NCBI RefSeq assembly: GCF_023256195.1
Contig: NZ_JAGDWX010000010.1
Coordinates: 1-64,000, forward strand
Length of the DNA: 64,000 nucleotides
From: Acidithiobacillus sp.
Lineage (GTDB): Bacteria; Pseudomonadota; Gammaproteobacteria; Acidithiobacillales; Acidithiobacillaceae
Direction: 5' to 3'
Part shown: positions 10,072 through 56,877 of the stretch, piece after piece
How the letters are laid out: the number at the start of each line of letters is the position of its first letter
Position numbering within the stretch: the first letter of the stretch is position 1
The notes under the pieces: model-generated
Told to the model about the DNA's origin: nothing
Seen by the model: the letters and a program-made list of their open reading frames with translations, nothing else
The model's database searches: none
Made by a program: the position numbers and the translations under genes

Positions 10072-10711
10072 GCTGCAGCGATACTCGGTCCTGGTTCTGA
10101 ACAGCAAGGGGGGCGCAGGCAAGACGACGGTTGCCACCAATCTGGCGAGCCTGCTTGCCCAGCGCGAAACGGTATTGCTGGCCGATCTGGATCCCCAAGG
10201 ATCCAGCAGCCACTGGTGGCGGCGCCGACCGCCGGCACTGCCGGAGATCACTCTGGTGAGCGATCCGCAACGCAAGTTCCGCGACTATCCGCCGGCCCAG
10301 TGGCTCATTCTGGACGCTCCGGCAGGCCTCAAGCGCACCCGTCTGGAGGAGATGCTGGATGAGGTGAGCACCCTGCTGGTACCCATCACCGCTTCGGTCT
10401 TGGATATGGACGCGAGTCTCGTCTTCCTCGAGCGGCTTCAGGAAATCAAGCGCTTTCGCAAGGGGCGCATCCGCATCGGCATCGTCGCCAACCGAGTGCA
10501 TCAGGGTACGCGGGCAAAGCAGGCCTTGGAAGACTTCTTGCGCGATCTGGAGATCCCGGTCATCGCCTCTCTGCGCGACAGTCAGATCTATGTCCGGGCC
10601 GCCGCTGCGGGGCTCGGCATCGCCGATCTGCGCGCCAGCGAGAACAGGTCGGAGCTGCCGCAGTGGACCCGTATCCTGCAGTTCTTGGGGGAAACCGACC
10701 GTGGAACGTGA
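10064..10711 (+). CDS. ParA/MinD-like deviant-Walker ATPase in the polyphosphate locus
   Basis: 215 aa. ParA-type ATPases dimerise with ATP, bind DNA or membrane and position cargo. SKGGAGKTT (15-22) is the deviant Walker A box with signature Lys15 and P-loop Lys20. LADLDPQGSSSHWW is the switch I region and WLILDAP the Walker B strand. No DNA-binding extension is present, as in short orphan ParAs and McdA-like proteins. No parB gene or parS-like repeat lies nearby, so plasmid or chromosome partition is unlikely. Its reading frame overlaps ppk1 (8 bases) and the CYTH-CHAD gene (11 bases), implying coupled translation with polyphosphate proteins. I infer a role in placing polyP granules; this is not established. 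Confidence 0.88.
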   Translation: MAELQRYSVLVLNSKGGAGKTTVATNLASLLAQRETVLLADLDPQGSSSHWWRRRPPALPEITLVSDPQRKFRDYPPAQWLILDAPAGLKRTRLEEMLDEVSTLLVPITASVLDMDASLVFLERLQEIKRFRKGRIRIGIVANRVHQGTRAKQALEDFLRDLEIPVIASLRDSQIYVRAAAAGLGIADLRASENRSELPQWTRILQFLGETDRGT

Positions 10712-12185
10712 ACTCAAACTGCAGGTACTGCAAGGCGAGGCCTGGGAAACCGTATTGAGCCACCCGCTGGTGGATCTGGCCACGGTGGCCCCGCGGCCGA
10801 TGCACGCCCTCTACTTCGACACCAGTGACCGTCGTCTGCAGCGCGCCGGTATTGCCTACCGTCTGCGCCGGGAGGGCGAGCAGTGGGTAGCCACTCTGAA
10901 ATTCGCCGGAGCAGCCGGCGGCGGGCTACATCAGCGCCCGGAATGGAATGTGGCGGTGGCCGAGCCGCAGGCGGATCTGGGCGTATTCAGCGATCCGGAA
11001 CTGACAGAGATCCTGCGCCCCTATCGCGATCTACCCTTGACGGTGGTGCTGGAGACGGTCTTCGAGCGGCGTGAGCGCCGCCTGACCGAGGTCGGGGGGG
11101 AGCAGTGGCTGCTGGCAGCCGATCGCGGCGAGATTCGGGTCAAGGAGGAGGTCTTGCCCATCCTGGAGCTGGAGCTGGAGTTGGTCACTGGCACGGTGGC
11201 CTCCCTTCTCGAGCGCGGTGCGGCCCTTTGTGAGGCTTTGCCGCTGTGCCCCGAGTCCCAGAGCAAGTTTCAACGGGGAATCGCTTTGCAGTTGGCTCAG
11301 CTCCCAACATCCTCGGTGCAGACACGGCAGGAGATCCAGACGCCGAAGCTGCACGGCCGCGAGGATGCCGCCGACGCCTTGCGGGGGATACTCATCGGCG
11401 AGATCCAGGAATCTTTGACCGCACTTCGGGTCGATACGCGCGATGGCAGCCGCACCAGTTTTCACGATCTGCGCCGCGCCGTGCGCCAGCTACGCGCTCT
11501 GCTGCGTTTCTGCAAGCCCTTGGAGGTGGACGCCGGGTTGAAAAAGCCGCGCCAGGAGCTCGCCACTTGGTTTCATCAGCAGAGTGGTCGCCGTGACCGC
11601 GACGCCCTACTGGACCATTGGCAAAGTCACGCCCCGGAATTCCAGCTGGCACCCGGACTTTTGACGGAGGCATTGCTGAAAAGCGATACCGAGACACCGA
11701 GCTCTGCGGGAACACTCGCGGCCACCCTCCTGAGGCTTTGGGCGCAGCTCGAAGGCGCCACCGCCCTGTCCGGGCGTCTCAGTCTGCGGGAATTTGCCGA
11801 ACAGCAGCTGGCCCAGATGGACCGCAAGCTACGGCGTGCCCACATCGATGCCGTCAGCGCCGAAGATCGCGCCGAGTTTCACCGACTGCGTATCCAGATC
11901 AAGAATTTCCGCTACGTGCTGCAGCGTCTTGCCGGACTTTGGCCGGCCAAGGACAGCAAAGGCATGATGAAGCTTCTGGGCCACCTGCAGGAGAGTTCCG
12001 GTCTGATTCGCGACGCGCAGATGTCCGCCAGCCACCTCCAACCCCTGGGACACGAGGCCCCCTCAGAGCTGGCCCTGCACGCCGGCGTGCTGTGGGGCTA
12101 CCTCGTCGCCCGCATGCAGCGGGAAGAGAAAAAGTTTCGCAAGTCCTGGAACCGCTTTCTGGAGGCCTCCCGACCCTGGGATTGA
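10701..12185 (+). CDS. CYTH-CHAD domain protein (polyphosphate-associated)
   Basis: 494 aa from GTG 10701. The N-terminal CYTH domain begins with the ExExK motif (ERELK, residues 2-6) that binds triphosphate chains in a beta-barrel. Characterised members hydrolyse inorganic triphosphate or bind polyphosphate. From about residue 225 a helical CHAD domain follows, with its paired conserved histidines in SFHDLRRAVRQLRALLRF and EFHRLRIQIKNFRYVLQRL; CHAD domains are known to bind polyP and localise to polyP granules. The upstream in-frame start at 10590 is rejected because it would lie deep in the ParA gene, whereas GTG 10701 begins directly with ExExK. GGGGGAAA upstream serves as ribosome-binding site. 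Confidence 0.93.
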   Translation: MERELKLQVLQGEAWETVLSHPLVDLATVAPRPMHALYFDTSDRRLQRAGIAYRLRREGEQWVATLKFAGAAGGGLHQRPEWNVAVAEPQADLGVFSDPELTEILRPYRDLPLTVVLETVFERRERRLTEVGGEQWLLAADRGEIRVKEEVLPILELELELVTGTVASLLERGAALCEALPLCPESQSKFQRGIALQLAQLPTSSVQTRQEIQTPKLHGREDAADALRGILIGEIQESLTALRVDTRDGSRTSFHDLRRAVRQLRALLRFCKPLEVDAGLKKPRQELATWFHQQSGRRDRDALLDHWQSHAPEFQLAPGLLTEALLKSDTETPSSAGTLAATLLRLWAQLEGATALSGRLSLREFAEQQLAQMDRKLRRAHIDAVSAEDRAEFHRLRIQIKNFRYVLQRLAGLWPAKDSKGMMKLLGHLQESSGLIRDAQMSASHLQPLGHEAPSELALHAGVLWGYLVARMQREEKKFRKSWNRFLEASRPWD

Positions 12186-12208
12186 CGCCCGGGGGTCGGG
12201 GCGGACTG

Positions 12209-12230
12209 CTCGGCCTCAGCAGGGGCCGAG
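12209..12230. terminator. Hairpin between convergent CYTH-CHAD and pepN genes
   Basis: CTCGGCC (12209-12215) pairs with GGCCGAG (12224-12230) across an eight-base loop that contains the pepN stop codon. It sits exactly where two convergent genes meet, a usual place for a two-way terminator. No clear T-run is present, so termination is only suggested. Confidence 0.3.
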
Positions 12231-12563
12231 TCTCTCCCGTTCCCGCTCGATCTTATGCGCCACCAAGGCAATGGACAGGGCGAGTCGGTACTGATCGCGG
12301 TCGAGCTCCCACTCGCGGGCCTGCTCGGCATCGAAATGCTGGCCGGCACAGCAGTCCTGCAAGGCCTTGCAGTCCATGCTGTCGGACAGGAAGCCCGCCA
12401 ACTCGGCGACCTGATCGGATCCGAATACCTCTGCCGCCGCGCCGAGATCCCCGATCTCCTTCCGAGCCACCAGCTCCGCTACCGCCAGGGTGGCGGCATC
12501 CAGGCACCTTTCCTCCGCTTTTTCCAGGCCTTTCTTCACTGCAGTGTCGATGTCGACGTTCAT
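12216..12563 (-). CDS. Candidate separate 115-aa protein nested in the pepN 3' end
   Basis: In frame with pepN, ATG 12563 is preceded by AGGAG with eight bases spacing (CAGGAGCGCGCGAAATG), far better than chance. The product begins MNVDIDTAVKKGLEKAEE and is predicted all-helical. It has four cysteines (ERCLD, DSMDCK, LQDCCAG) plus a C-terminal Cys, and a long charged helix at the end. I do not recognise the family. It may be made both as the tail of PepN and as an independent protein. The simplest history is an originally separate gene now joined to pepN by loss of the stop, but a genuine domain fusion is equally compatible with the sequence. Confidence 0.45.
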   Translation of the reverse strand: MNVDIDTAVKKGLEKAEERCLDAATLAVAELVARKEIGDLGAAAEVFGSDQVAELAGFLSDSMDCKALQDCCAGQHFDAEQAREWELDRDQYRLALSIALVAHKIERERERLGPC

Positions 12564-15260
12564 TTCGCGCGCTCCTGAAGGATGAATGGAAATGGAATGC
12601 GGTCTAACGGGATGGGCTGGGGCCTCCGTCGCCGCCTCGCGGCAACGGCCGAGCACCTCGGCAAGGTCACGCGACAGGGCAGGCTTTCGAGCGAGCTCGG
12701 CGATGACCTCCTGCATGTGCCCGCGACGCCGCTCGTCCAGCCGCGGCCAGCGACTCAGCACCGTTGCCAGACGAGCGGCCGTCTGCGGGTTGATATCGTC
12801 GAGACGACGGAGCTGTTCGCCGAAAAAACGGTAGCCGGAGCCATCGGCGGCGTGAAAGACCGTGGGGTTGGCGGCAAATGCCCCCAGGACCGAACGCACC
12901 CGGTTGGGCACACGCCAGTCGAAATCGGGATGCACCAACAGATTGGCCGCGCGATGCAGGGTCGCCGGTTCCGCCCGCCCCAGCTGGATACTGAACCACC
13001 GATCCAGCACCAGCGGATGGTGGCGCCAGGTCCAATAGAAATCCATGATCAGATCTTCACTGTCGTGGTCGACATCCTGGACCAGCAATGCGTAGGCTGC
13101 CAGACGTTCGCTCATGTTGTCGGCCTCTGCGTATTGCAGACGTGCCAGGGCAATGGCCTCCCAGCGCAGACGATCGTTGGCCAACAGATAGGACAGGGCA
13201 AGCTGACGCAAACGCCTCTGGCCCACGGCCAGACCGTCCAGACGGTAGGGCGCGGCAAGCCCCTGATACCAGGCCATCCAGGTCTCGCCGAAGAGCTCGC
13301 CCAGCGCCTTACGCAAGGCCTCGCGGGCAGCATGGATGGCATCCACCTGAAGTATCTCCATCTGCTCGCCCAGATAATCCTCCGACGGCAGGGTCAGCAG
13401 TTCGGCACAGAAGGCCGGGTCCTCCGGCCACTGGGCGGTGACGGCCGCAACCGCCTCGCGCAGGTCGGCGCCGGGCAGAACCTGCTTTGGCTCACGGATG
13501 TAGCCGAGCAGCTCGCGAATGGCCAGGGCCTGAAAGTTCTCCCAGCGGCTGAAGGGATCATCGTCGTGACGAGCAAGAAAGGGCTCGGCGCTGGCCGCAT
13601 CGCTGCGTTCGAGGATGATGGGGGCAGAAAAGCCTCGGAACAGAGAAGGCACGCAGGGCCCGGATATCCCGGTGAAGGTCCATTCCTGCCGTGTTTGCGA
13701 TAGCATCAGGACGGTTTCCTCACCCAGATGGGCACCATCCAGCTGCAGAGGCAAACGCTTACCCGCGTGATCGAAGAGGGCGACACGCACGGGTATGGGC
13801 ACCGCCGTCTTGGTGGGCTGCCCCGGGGTTGCCGGGGTCCGCTGCGACAGCTCCAGACGCAGGCTGCCCGACTCTGGATCCGGGTGCCATCGCGCCACGA
13901 CCCGCGGCGTACCTGCCTGCGCATACCAGCGGCGAAAGGCCTGTAGATCGCAGCCACTGCCCACTTCCAAGGCCGTCAGAAAATCCTCGATGGTTACCGC
14001 CTGGCCGTCGAATCGGGCGAAATATTCGTCCATGCCCGCCCGAAAACGCGCAGGACCCAAGGTGGTATGGATCATACGCACGATTTCTGCGCCTTTTTCG
14101 TAGACCGTCGCCGTGTAGAAATTGTTGATCTCGGCGTAGACCTCGGGTCGCACGGGGTGGGCCAAGGGGCCTGCGTCCTCCGGAAATTGCGCAGCACGCA
14201 GCCGGCGCACATCGGCAATGCGCTGCACGCCGCGAGAATTCTGATCCGCCGAGAACTCCTGATCGCGAAAGACGGTCAGCCCTTCTTTCAGGCTCAGCTG
14301 AAACCAATCGCGCAAGGTGACGCGATTACCGCTCCAGTTGTGGAAGTACTCGTGCGCGATCACCGATTCGACGTGCAGGTAATCGTCGTCCGTCGCCGTC
14401 TCGGGACTGGCCAGCACGTATTTGGTGTTGAATATGTTGAGGCCCTTGTTTTCCATCGCCCCCATATTGAAGCTGTCGGTGGCGACGATCATGTACCGTT
14501 CGAGGTCGTATTCACGCCCGTAGACCTGCTCGTCCCAGGCCATGGCCCGCTTGAGACTGTCCAGGGCCCGCCCGCAGGAGTCGCGGTAACGCTCGGCGAC
14601 GTAGACCTCCAGAGCGACCGATCGACCGCTCATGGTCGTGAAATGGTCGCGCTCCACCACGAACTTTCCAGCCACCAGCGCGAACAGATAGCAGGGCTTG
14701 GGGAAGGGGTCGCGCCAGCGCGCCCAGTGCCCGCCGGCATCGTCTGTCCCCACTGCCTCAAGATTGCCATTGGCCAGCAGGATCGGATACTGATCTCGGG
14801 CAGCGTGCAGGGTGACGGTGAAGGGCGCGAGGCAATCGGGCCGATCCAGATAGTAGGTGATGCGACGGAAACCCTCAGCTTCGCACTGGGTGAGGAGCAC
14901 GCCATCGGCAGCATACAGTCCCGACAGCTGGGTGTTGGCCGACGGGCAGATCCGCACCCGGCTGCTCAGGGTGAAAGTCTGGGGAGGACGCCGCAGGCGC
15001 AGACCATCGGCGACCAGGTCATAGCGATCGGCCGCCAGCACCTGCCCGTCGAGACGCAACTCCAAAAGCTCCAGGTTCTCACCGTGGAGAGTCAGACTCT
15101 CCGGCGGTTCCAAGCTGCGACAGCGCATCTGCAGTTCCGCAGACACCTCGGTACGGTCTGCATCCAGATAGAAGTCGAGGGAGGTGGCGACGATGTCATA
15201 CTCCGGAGGTCGATAATCCTCGCGTCGAATTCCCTGGATGCTGGCCATCATTGCCGCCAT
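12216..15260 (-). CDS. pepN: Aminopeptidase N (M1 family) with an extra in-frame C-terminal domain
   Basis: 1014 aa, against about 870-885 for the family. PepN is a cytoplasmic zinc aminopeptidase that trims N-terminal residues from peptides. GAMEN (267-271) binds the substrate amino terminus. HEYFH (303-307) with Glu326 forms the HExxH-x18-E zinc site. The M1 four-domain body runs to about residue 885. Residues 900-1014 are an added Cys- and Glu-rich helical segment beginning at an internal Met with its own ribosome-binding site (see the separate entry). The start ATG overlaps the stop of the DsbG-like gene as TGATG, so translation is coupled; Met4 or Met5 are alternative starts. The extension is either a true fusion or a lost stop codon. 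Confidence 0.93.
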   Translation of the reverse strand: MAAMMASIQGIRREDYRPPEYDIVATSLDFYLDADRTEVSAELQMRCRSLEPPESLTLHGENLELLELRLDGQVLAADRYDLVADGLRLRRPPQTFTLSSRVRICPSANTQLSGLYAADGVLLTQCEAEGFRRITYYLDRPDCLAPFTVTLHAARDQYPILLANGNLEAVGTDDAGGHWARWRDPFPKPCYLFALVAGKFVVERDHFTTMSGRSVALEVYVAERYRDSCGRALDSLKRAMAWDEQVYGREYDLERYMIVATDSFNMGAMENKGLNIFNTKYVLASPETATDDDYLHVESVIAHEYFHNWSGNRVTLRDWFQLSLKEGLTVFRDQEFSADQNSRGVQRIADVRRLRAAQFPEDAGPLAHPVRPEVYAEINNFYTATVYEKGAEIVRMIHTTLGPARFRAGMDEYFARFDGQAVTIEDFLTALEVGSGCDLQAFRRWYAQAGTPRVVARWHPDPESGSLRLELSQRTPATPGQPTKTAVPIPVRVALFDHAGKRLPLQLDGAHLGEETVLMLSQTRQEWTFTGISGPCVPSLFRGFSAPIILERSDAASAEPFLARHDDDPFSRWENFQALAIRELLGYIREPKQVLPGADLREAVAAVTAQWPEDPAFCAELLTLPSEDYLGEQMEILQVDAIHAAREALRKALGELFGETWMAWYQGLAAPYRLDGLAVGQRRLRQLALSYLLANDRLRWEAIALARLQYAEADNMSERLAAYALLVQDVDHDSEDLIMDFYWTWRHHPLVLDRWFSIQLGRAEPATLHRAANLLVHPDFDWRVPNRVRSVLGAFAANPTVFHAADGSGYRFFGEQLRRLDDINPQTAARLATVLSRWPRLDERRRGHMQEVIAELARKPALSRDLAEVLGRCREAATEAPAHPVRPHSISIHPSGAREMNVDIDTAVKKGLEKAEERCLDAATLAVAELVARKEIGDLGAAAEVFGSDQVAELAGFLSDSMDCKALQDCCAGQHFDAEQAREWELDRDQYRLALSIALVAHKIERERERLGPC

Positions 15261-16117
15261 CAGCTGTTTTTGCAGCTACCGTGCTCGAGAGAATGGATCT
15301 CCTTGAGGAAAGACCCCAGGTCCTTGTCCGGAAGTCCGTGCTTGAGCACCACGGCATTGTGGTCGTTGCAGTAGAGTAAGGTCGGGGTGGCTACCTCGCC
15401 ACTCTGCTCCAACAACTTGGTGTTGTTCTGCACGGCACTGACCGTTGCGGGCGTGGGATCCTTGGCAGGCTGGATACCACCCTCTTCCGTCGCCTCATCG
15501 AAACCCTTCTCGTTCTCCGCCATGGCCGCCGCCGGATCCTTGGCACCCAAGATGGCCTCGGCCTTGCCGGCGCTGCTGGGCTTGAGGAAGGCCACCACGA
15601 CAAAGCGGACCCGCAACTTGCCAGCGGCAATCAGGGGCTTGGCCTCCTCATAGAACTTGTGACAAAAGATGCAGTTGGGATCGACAAAGGCGGTGATCTC
15701 CGGTCCCCCGCTACCGAGTACGAAGCTGTCGGCATCTGCCGCCTTCTTGGCCAGGGCCTCGGGAGTCTCGGGTTTGGGTATGAGGCCGAGCTCCATGGCC
15801 TCCTGCCGCATCTGATTCTCACCGGCGGCATTGAAAACCGTGCCGACGACGAGGTATTTGCCGTCGGGCGTCAGGTAGAGGATGTTGGGACGGCCGTCGA
15901 TCTGAACCAAGGCCCCGGTCAAACCACCGGGGCCGGCAAAAGTCTTTTCCACTTTGCCAACACCGTGGGTCAGTCCATCCACGAGCTTCTGAGCCTCGGC
16001 CTGCGACACGACGTCCGCCTTGGCATAGGGAATGGGCAGATATTTTCCAGCGAAGACGCCACCCAGAGCGCCCACCACCAATAGACCTACCGCCAGCGCT
16101 ACCGTTTTTGTCTGCAT
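15260..16117 (-). CDS. DsbG/DsbC-like periplasmic thiol:disulfide protein
   Basis: 285 aa from ATG 16117, chosen because AAAGGGCAGGGC precedes it; ATG 16141 has no comparable site. The N-terminus has a hydrophobic segment (about 5-24), a signal peptide or anchor, placing the protein in the periplasm. An N-terminal dimerisation-like region is followed by a thioredoxin fold with active site DPNCIFCHKFY (CxxC) and the cis-proline loop ATPTLLY. This layout is that of DsbC/DsbG isomerases, which repair wrong disulfides or reduce sulfenylated cysteines. The dipeptide Ile-Phe between the cysteines differs from the usual Gly-Tyr or Pro-Tyr. Two further Cys (LLYC, HGSC) lie in the last 45 residues. 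Confidence 0.87.
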   Translation of the reverse strand: MQTKTVALAVGLLVVGALGGVFAGKYLPIPYAKADVVSQAEAQKLVDGLTHGVGKVEKTFAGPGGLTGALVQIDGRPNILYLTPDGKYLVVGTVFNAAGENQMRQEAMELGLIPKPETPEALAKKAADADSFVLGSGGPEITAFVDPNCIFCHKFYEEAKPLIAAGKLRVRFVVVAFLKPSSAGKAEAILGAKDPAAAMAENEKGFDEATEEGGIQPAKDPTPATVSAVQNNTKLLEQSGEVATPTLLYCNDHNAVVLKHGLPDKDLGSFLKEIHSLEHGSCKNS

Positions 16118-16217
16118 GCCCTGCCCTTTCTCTGTCCACATTCGCTCAATTCGAATGGGACATGTTAACCCGCAAGGCTCCCTGCTTCCAGTCGCGGGCC
16201 TCGCACCGGCTCCCGAA

Positions 16218-56019: not shown

Positions 56020-56095
56020 GTCCCCATCGTCTAGCGGCCTAGGACACCGCCCTTTCACGGCGGTAACGGGGGTTCGAACCCCCCTGGGGACGCCA
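56020..56095 (+). tRNA. tRNA-Glu (anticodon TTC)
   Basis: A complete cloverleaf of 76 bases. The acceptor stem GTCCCCA pairs with TGGGGAC, followed by G and an encoded CCA at 56093-56095. The anticodon loop is CTTTCAC with TTC, and the T-loop is GTTCGAACC. It stands alone, not in an rRNA operon, with its own promoter. Confidence 0.98.
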
Positions 56096-56186
56096 TCTTA
56101 TTTTCCCTCGGAACGATGACGGCGGATTCGCCCTTCGGGAGAGCTCCGTGGAGCCGGCGGAAGCTGCCGGGGCCCACAGCCACGCT

Positions 56187-56215
56187 GTGACCTTCCCTGC
56201 GCCCCGTACTATAAT
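56187..56215 (+). promoter_or_regulatory. sigma-70 promoter of the slp-like gene
   Basis: A perfect TATAAT (56210-56215) follows GTGACC (56187-56192, four of six -35 positions) after 17 bases. Transcription should start near 56222, leaving a leader of about 130 bases before the lipoprotein gene. Confidence 0.5.
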
Positions 56216-56221
56216 CAAGAG

Positions 56222-56349
56222 TGTAAGCATGAAACGGATAACAAACGCCGCCAGCTTGGCGCCGTAGCGCAGGGGCCTGCGACTGGAACCAAGAGTCTGC
56301 AGGCAGCTTGGCGACGGCGGAGTCCATCCCCTTGCTCAGGGAGACGCGT
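56222..56349 (+). promoter_or_regulatory. Long structured leader with direct repeats, upstream of slp-like gene
   Basis: The leader is GC-rich. CAGCTTGGCG occurs twice (56252-56261, 56304-56313). CCGCC (56248-56252) can pair with GGCGG (56316-56320), enclosing a CGCAG-GGGC-CTGCG hairpin and a CGCC-AGCTT-GGCG hairpin, which uses one repeat copy. This resembles a multi-branched element, but I match it to no known riboswitch. Confidence 0.4.
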
Positions 56350-56877
56350 ATGCATGCTCGGCTGAAGTTTTTGGTCCTCCCCCCTGCAGTGCTTGCTTCC
56401 TTGGCCTTGAGCGCCTGTTCCGCTCTGACGCCTGTGGCAGGCCGCTACCCATCCATCACGCCACAGGAGGCGCAGACCGCGGCTACCAGCACCCAAGTTC
56501 TGCGCTGGGGCGGAACGATCATCGGGAGCAGCAAGGTATCCGGTGAGACCTGCCTCACCGTGCTGAGTTATCCCCTCGACCGCCTGGGCAAACCGCAGAT
56601 CGGTGGCGATACCGGCGATAGCGGTCGCTTCATCGCCTGTACCTCCGCAGCGCTGGATCCCGTCCGCTACCGCAAAGGGCGCCAGATCACGGTCATCGGG
56701 TATCTCCGCGGCATACGTATCCAGATGATTGGCGAGCACCCCTATCGCTACCCGCTGCTGCAGGCCTCAACCCTGTATCTTTGGCCCAGGCCTCAGCACA
56801 ACCGCATGGACCACACCTTCATCCAGAACCGTTGCAGCCCACTGTTCACCAGCATCGGCTGCAGCAGCTCTTGGTAA
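56350..56877 (+). CDS. Slp-family outer-membrane lipoprotein
   Basis: 175 aa from ATG 56350 (GGGAGACGCGT upstream); a start at 56308 lies in the leader and is rejected. The signal HARLKFLVLPPAVLASLALSAC has lipobox LSAC. The mature part has the Slp fold: PSITPQEAQTAATSTQVLRWGGTIIGSSK, then RFIACTSAALDPVRYRKGRQITVIGYLRG, and EHPYRYPLLQASTLYLWPR at the end. E. coli Slp rises in stationary phase and acid. Cys residues lie near the C-terminus (NRCSPL, IGCSSS), which could form a disulfide. Confidence 0.9.
   Translation: MHARLKFLVLPPAVLASLALSACSALTPVAGRYPSITPQEAQTAATSTQVLRWGGTIIGSSKVSGETCLTVLSYPLDRLGKPQIGGDTGDSGRFIACTSAALDPVRYRKGRQITVIGYLRGIRIQMIGEHPYRYPLLQASTLYLWPRPQHNRMDHTFIQNRCSPLFTSIGCSSSW

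Follow-up and report, generated by a model that had tools for sequence, protein, structure and literature searches.

Does the overlong pepN frame at this locus carry a novel fused domain, or did a separate small gene lose the stop that once set it apart from pepN? Here, we address this question for the window, i.e., the whole analysed stretch of 64,000 nucleotides of Acidithiobacillus sp. DNA. The evidence favours the latter: two genes that have long been neighbours seem to have fused in a derived and otherwise ordinary event, and the more interesting half of the fusion is the small protein, conserved and uncharacterised.

The frame is a single open one of 1014 codons on the minus strand (15260-12216, as read from the window sequence), in which a complete PepN is followed by 26 linker codons and a domain of 115 residues (Table 1). 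The PepN portion matches the PepN model TIGR02414 over residues 15-872 with 1084.2 bits (cut-off 718.2) and contains the four PepN Pfam domains in the right order (PF17900, PF01433, PF11940, PF17432), the last of them ending at residue 873. PepN is marked by the zinc and exopeptidase motifs HExxH...E and GxMEN; GAMEN, HEYFHNW and, downstream, KEG can be read in the translation. Whereas a usual PepN ends at its C-terminal helical domain, the window PepN continues for 141 more residues past residue 873. The preliminary description of this DNA had claimed a frame open to 1014 residues with an extra domain beyond PepN, which is confirmed by the ORF read and by the ends of the TIGR02414 and Pfam matches at 872 and 873. 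It had further placed AGGAG eight bases ahead of an ATG at 12563, and this is borne out, with the motif at 12576-12572. The length of its "Cys-rich" 115-residue tail also stands, but the epithet was generous for a domain with just five cysteines.

Table 1 Features of the fused pepN frame and its immediate neighbours in the window
Feature	Position	Strand	Basis
PepN (M1 aminopeptidase N) core, residues 1-873	12642..15260	-	TIGR02414, Pfam M1 domains
26-codon linker, residues 874-899	12564..12641	-	Ungapped comparison with G001; low pLDDT
GCC where G001 has the pepN stop TAG	12615..12617	-	Gap-free alignment back from the ATG of the small gene
TCA where G001 has the second in-frame stop TGA	12576..12578	-	Comparison with G001
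AGGAG, Shine-Dalgarno-like	12572..12576	-	8 bases ahead of ATG 12563
115-residue C-terminal domain, own ATG, stop TGA	12216..12563	-	Family search, alignment; separate gene in relatives
DsbG-like gene upstream of pepN	15260..16141	-	Name by published gene order (available text of PMC10892726)
CYTH/CHAD open frame, convergent with the fused frame	10590..12185	+	Name by published gene order (available text of PMC10892726)

The stop of the DsbG-like gene and the start of pepN share one base. On the other side, 30 bases (12186-12215) separate the CYTH/CHAD frame from the end of the fused frame, as compared to about 156 between the same convergent ends in G001, which together with the window's genome makes up the genus set of two. 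No promoter- or terminator-like sites were found at 12100-12750.

A C-terminal extension of this kind was sought in a class sample of 185 genomes, 131 of which have a PepN match over the cut-off. Among the matches listed, five PepN frames exceed 1000 codons, the window's included, and none of the other four is a C-terminal fusion: they are extended at the N-terminus and end 3-9 residues beyond the PepN match. Within the order, the other PepN frames span 869-956 codons, except for the split PepN of G017. In that genome, which is 69% complete, pepN is distributed over three frames (C96:5879-8307, locus L099) and is either broken or misassembled.

The tail itself is more than a chance open frame, as it matches a family that is conserved across genera. 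A search with the tail in 40 genomes (the window's own included) gave matches in 21. With the profile of family alignment A2, which has 22 rows and the window domain among them, members were found in 25 of the 29 Acidithiobacillaceae genomes and in neither of the two genomes from the rest of the order; one of the four Acidithiobacillaceae genomes without a member is only 61% complete. Named relatives that carry the family include Acidithiobacillus ferrivorans, ferriphilus, ferrianus, concretivorus, sulfurivorans, montserratensis and marinus. The A2 profile covers the window domain over positions 1-112 of 113 (E 3.5e-45, a value obtained with the domain itself as a row of the model), and single-sequence matches link the domain to other members at E 5.3e-59 to 2.7e-10. 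It is 83% identical to the separate protein of G001, and tail identity ranges from 40 to 83% over G001 and 11 other loci adjacent to pepN. One of the cysteines, C72, is invariant in the 22-row alignment. The window's genome has one family match only. G001 possesses a second, diverged member (L027, C1:1392573-1392896) with 34% identity to the window domain.

Beyond the family Acidithiobacillaceae, a class search of 369 genomes gave matches in G000, G003 and G156 and no convincing case outside Acidithiobacillaceae. The match in G156 (E 9.7e-4) was rejected as a chance hit, since it sits in a long frame that by eye encodes a DExH helicase. A phylum search of 398 genomes returned one, the window itself. 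Alignment A3 searched against genome contigs recovered 12 loci; genome contigs searched with a single protein and viral contigs searched with the window domain yielded no relative, and plasmids searched for the family gave no match. In G003 and G006, one TGA within the aligned stretch had suggested selenocysteine or another form of recoding, which was dismissed, as this TGA is an ordinary gene stop near the aligned end. The 115-residue domain has no Pfam or NCBIfam match up to E 1. Likewise, the 22 family members gave no convincing match at a threshold of E 0.001 (best E 0.017 in Pfam and 0.013 in PHROGs), and neither did the PDB searched by sequence profile (best E 0.028).

The genomic setting of this family tells where the tail comes from. 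Counted by gene positions, 16 of the 25 genomes with the family, the window's included, have a member immediately following pepN (in G017 the small gene follows the last pepN piece). A stop separates pepN from the small gene in all 15 other genomes with this adjacency and is absent only in the window. The gap between stop and start measures 2-42 bases in 14 genomes, with 2 bases in G007, G011 and G015, and 51 bases in G001; in G001 and G006 both genes are in the same frame with stops between them. Outside the genus, in the 14 genomes where the pair is adjacent, PepN extends 0-8 residues beyond its matched stretch; the PepN of G001 stops 8 residues beyond the counterpart of residue 873. Of the 36 family places listed, 35 are in frames of 58-194 codons, while the window's is in one of 1019. 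The window member differs from the other members in lacking a preceding stop and in running on from PepN without a break, but it retains the family trait of an own start codon with a ribosome-binding site: AGGAG also precedes the small gene of G001, and similar GGAG-type sites were seen by eye ahead of most of 28 loci.

Judged by gene content, the tie of the small gene to PepN is not obligatory, as 9 of the 25 genomes carry no member beside pepN and 4 of the 29 lack the gene. Three of the loci away from pepN were inspected. In Acidithiobacillus HP-2 and montserratensis, the small gene lies between ppk2-like and aldolase-like genes (L043, 5112-7353, and L040, 5120-7403; translations read), and in A. 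sulfurivorans a member directly follows cytochrome bc1-like genes (L041:467-2558; names by reading). The ppk2-like neighbour in the first two loci, together with the ppk1- and CHAD-like genes near the fused frame in the window, offers a weak lead towards a polyphosphate link of the small gene.

How the stops were lost is best seen in the comparison with G001. Counted back from the ATG of the small gene, the two sequences align without a gap and the spacers are of equal length. G001 has two in-frame stops, TAG at -54 to -52 and TGA at -15 to -13, the latter opening the sequence TGA GGA GCG CTC GAG ATG. At the first stop position, GCC in the window differs from TAG in all three bases; at the second, TCA differs from TGA in one base (12577). 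What is linker in the window is, in G001, the end of PepN (8 codons and the stop) followed by the spacer. Over its 78 bases, 30 sites differ between the two genomes (39% divergence, 61% identity).

These differences also bear on an assembly or base-calling artefact, by which the true sequence would have a stop just before AGGAG and the genes would be separate. The 15 other pepN-adjacent genomes, all with separate genes, speak for such an error, and so does the circumstance that, with the TAG position once lost, a single base (12577) decides the last stop. However, no indel is involved, three bases differ at the first stop position, and with 30 differing sites in the linker we judge a genuine substitution far more probable than an error in the base call. 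A neighbour-pair control with G001 points in the same direction. Among 40 co-directional G001 pairs from 100 kb, two share one window frame: pepN with the small gene, and a pair that is antisense to a frame of 90% identity. The list of pairs is rough, as it came from a greedy script: some of its entries are antisense frames, and the overlap rule removed at least one frame that looks real. We consider that an artefact has only a very slim chance of explaining the open joint.

The linker differences fall evenly on the three codon positions (11/11/8) and thereby resemble untranslated DNA. In the C-terminal half of pepN (54/45/192) and in the small gene (12/10/39), differences lie mainly at third positions. 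Simple estimates between window and G001 are dN 0.095 and dS 1.00 for the C-terminal half of pepN, and dN 0.103 and dS 0.683 for the small gene; on these substitution patterns, PepN and the small gene are both conserved between the two species. The codon-position comparison with G001 gave no sign of selection on the linker as protein. Nor is its openness a sign of selection, since shuffling the bases of the 26 linker codons gave a stop-free sequence in 52% of trials. From its pattern of change, the linker looks largely like former spacer. Elsewhere in the alignment of the two genomes, at window positions 56095-56399, the window lacks an aligned equivalent of about 18 kb of G001 (near C1:2068490-2086525), a candidate inserted or lost element.

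The proposal in the preliminary description that a separate small gene had lost its stop is therefore supported by the separate genes behind pepN in 15 other genomes and by the two stops in G001. Its alternative, a "novel" fused domain, holds only in so far as the domain belongs to no Pfam or NCBIfam family and its relatives to none convincing in Pfam or PHROGs; the domain is otherwise an old neighbour gene. The description had also named stops in relatives, with the joint explained by a base error, as grounds against its reading. The first of these points holds, as the relatives do have stops; as to the second, the first stop position differs at three bases and the other at one, which leaves a slight chance of an error at the latter.

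The direction of change was read from a PepN tree of 29 of the 31 genomes of the order, from which G017 (split PepN) and G019 (no match) were left out. The fusion occupies one tip, sister to the unfused G001 with a support of 100/100, and the pepN-adjacent unfused state is found in the deepest branches of Acidithiobacillaceae. Mapped on this tree, the label "adjacent" has to change 6 times, which means that the small gene was moved or lost several times. The fusion is known from one genome, and no second strain was found. Alternatively, the fusion could be older, dating to the ancestor of the genus, and its frame could have been split anew in G001 through the acquisition of two stops. As the genus set comprises two genomes, the direction inside the genus rests on outgroups, which leaves room for this scenario; yet the pair is separate in all 14 adjacent genomes of three other genera and the window forms one isolated tip of the tree, so that an older fusion has about as slim a chance as an artefact. 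On tree and alignment, the preferred reading is that the fused state arose by stop loss in the lineage of the window.

Structure prediction agrees with a folded domain carried by a flexible tether. Modelled alone with AF2 (13 sequences), the domain is predicted to form seven helices with a pLDDT of 94.0 and a pTM of 0.89. The full-length model is poor (pLDDT 62.2, pTM 0.46) and unfit for judging docking on PepN; its residues 877-899 have a pLDDT under 50, and its tail shows the same helices. PDB and BFVD structure searches gave nothing convincing. The best Foldseek hit among solved structures had E 1.2 and a probability of 0.09, and the best VIA-align hit (Z 4.3, rmsd 4.3, 89 residues) lies under the level of that tool for unrelated helical models and gives no ground for assigning a function. 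One BFVD row, with a probability of 0.63 and E 2.2 over 76 columns, is an uncharacterised phage protein.

Taken as a whole, we regard as probable an account in which a derived stop-loss fusion joins PepN, tether and domain and gives rise to both products; more tentatively, it may involve a partner role of the small protein. The open frame, the separate genes of the relatives, the missing stops and the kept start codon with its ribosome-binding site are visible in the sequences themselves. The stops that lay in frame between the two genes would have been lost by base substitution, without an indel relative to G001. The resulting frame encodes the whole of PepN, a probably flexible tether of some 25 residues that is largely former spacer, and the compact domain predicted to have seven helices. 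Ribosomes coming from pepN would read through and make the 1014-residue fusion, and initiation by some ribosomes at ATG 12563 may yield the 115-residue protein in the form encoded by relatives; going by the sequence, two products from one frame are plausible. The small protein might act with PepN, for instance as a binding partner or a modulator of its activity, and tethering might be tolerated or useful. This cooperation is suggested by the adjacency in 16 of 25 genomes and by the 2-base gaps in three of them. The available text of PMC10666635 reports that, in coupled gene pairs, genes for subunits of complexes are enriched in short overlaps and that coupling is almost lost at gaps of about 20 bases. 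As 12 of the 15 gaps between pepN and the small gene measure 20-51 bases, they provide no argument for coupling. It seems rather doubtful that the tethered domain is a family-specific helical regulator that sets the activity, partners or location of PepN, with free regulator supplied by internal initiation.

There is, in our estimate, an even chance that the fusion is real and has no role of its own, i.e., that a near-neutral stop loss gave PepN a passive tail and that the small protein is made mostly from its own start. The linker, with no codon periodicity and open in about half of the shuffles, suggests that the fusion may be recent and neutral. The retained start signals of the small gene, the conservation of PepN and of the small gene, and the low confidence with which the linker is predicted favour the same reading. 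A neutral fusion is compatible with the stop-loss part of our best explanation and denies the partner idea, to which the adjacency in relatives lends its support.

The preferred account of a derived stop-loss fusion provides a clean example of how neighbouring genes merge by stop loss with the inner start kept, the unfused state being present in G001. It also points to a well-conserved, uncharacterised small helical protein of Acidithiobacillaceae, with PepN as its guessed partner. If the partner reading is true, the small protein of the relatives would be an unrecognised PepN partner that was exposed by a natural fusion; a neutral fusion would amount to a minor curiosity. Among the titles and abstract openings listed in the literature searches, none describes this pepN fusion or the small gene.

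The surroundings of the fused frame are familiar. According to the available text of PMC10892726, the gene order folD-ppk1-parA-CHAD-pepN-dsbG is published for Acidithiobacillus, and both the window region and locus L032 have the same order from the ppk-like frame on (names by reading). A small gene between CHAD and pepN, and a fusion, go unmentioned in that text. Fusions of adjacent bacterial genes are collected in FusionDB, as cited in the accessible part of PMC3711429, and gene fusions born by deletion are treated in that of PMC12803068. The locus is like bacterial gene fusions generally in that two genes have become one frame. In contrast to deletion-born fusions, however, the fusion in the window is best explained by the substitution of stops in a spacer that has kept the length seen in G001, and the start signal of the downstream gene has been retained.
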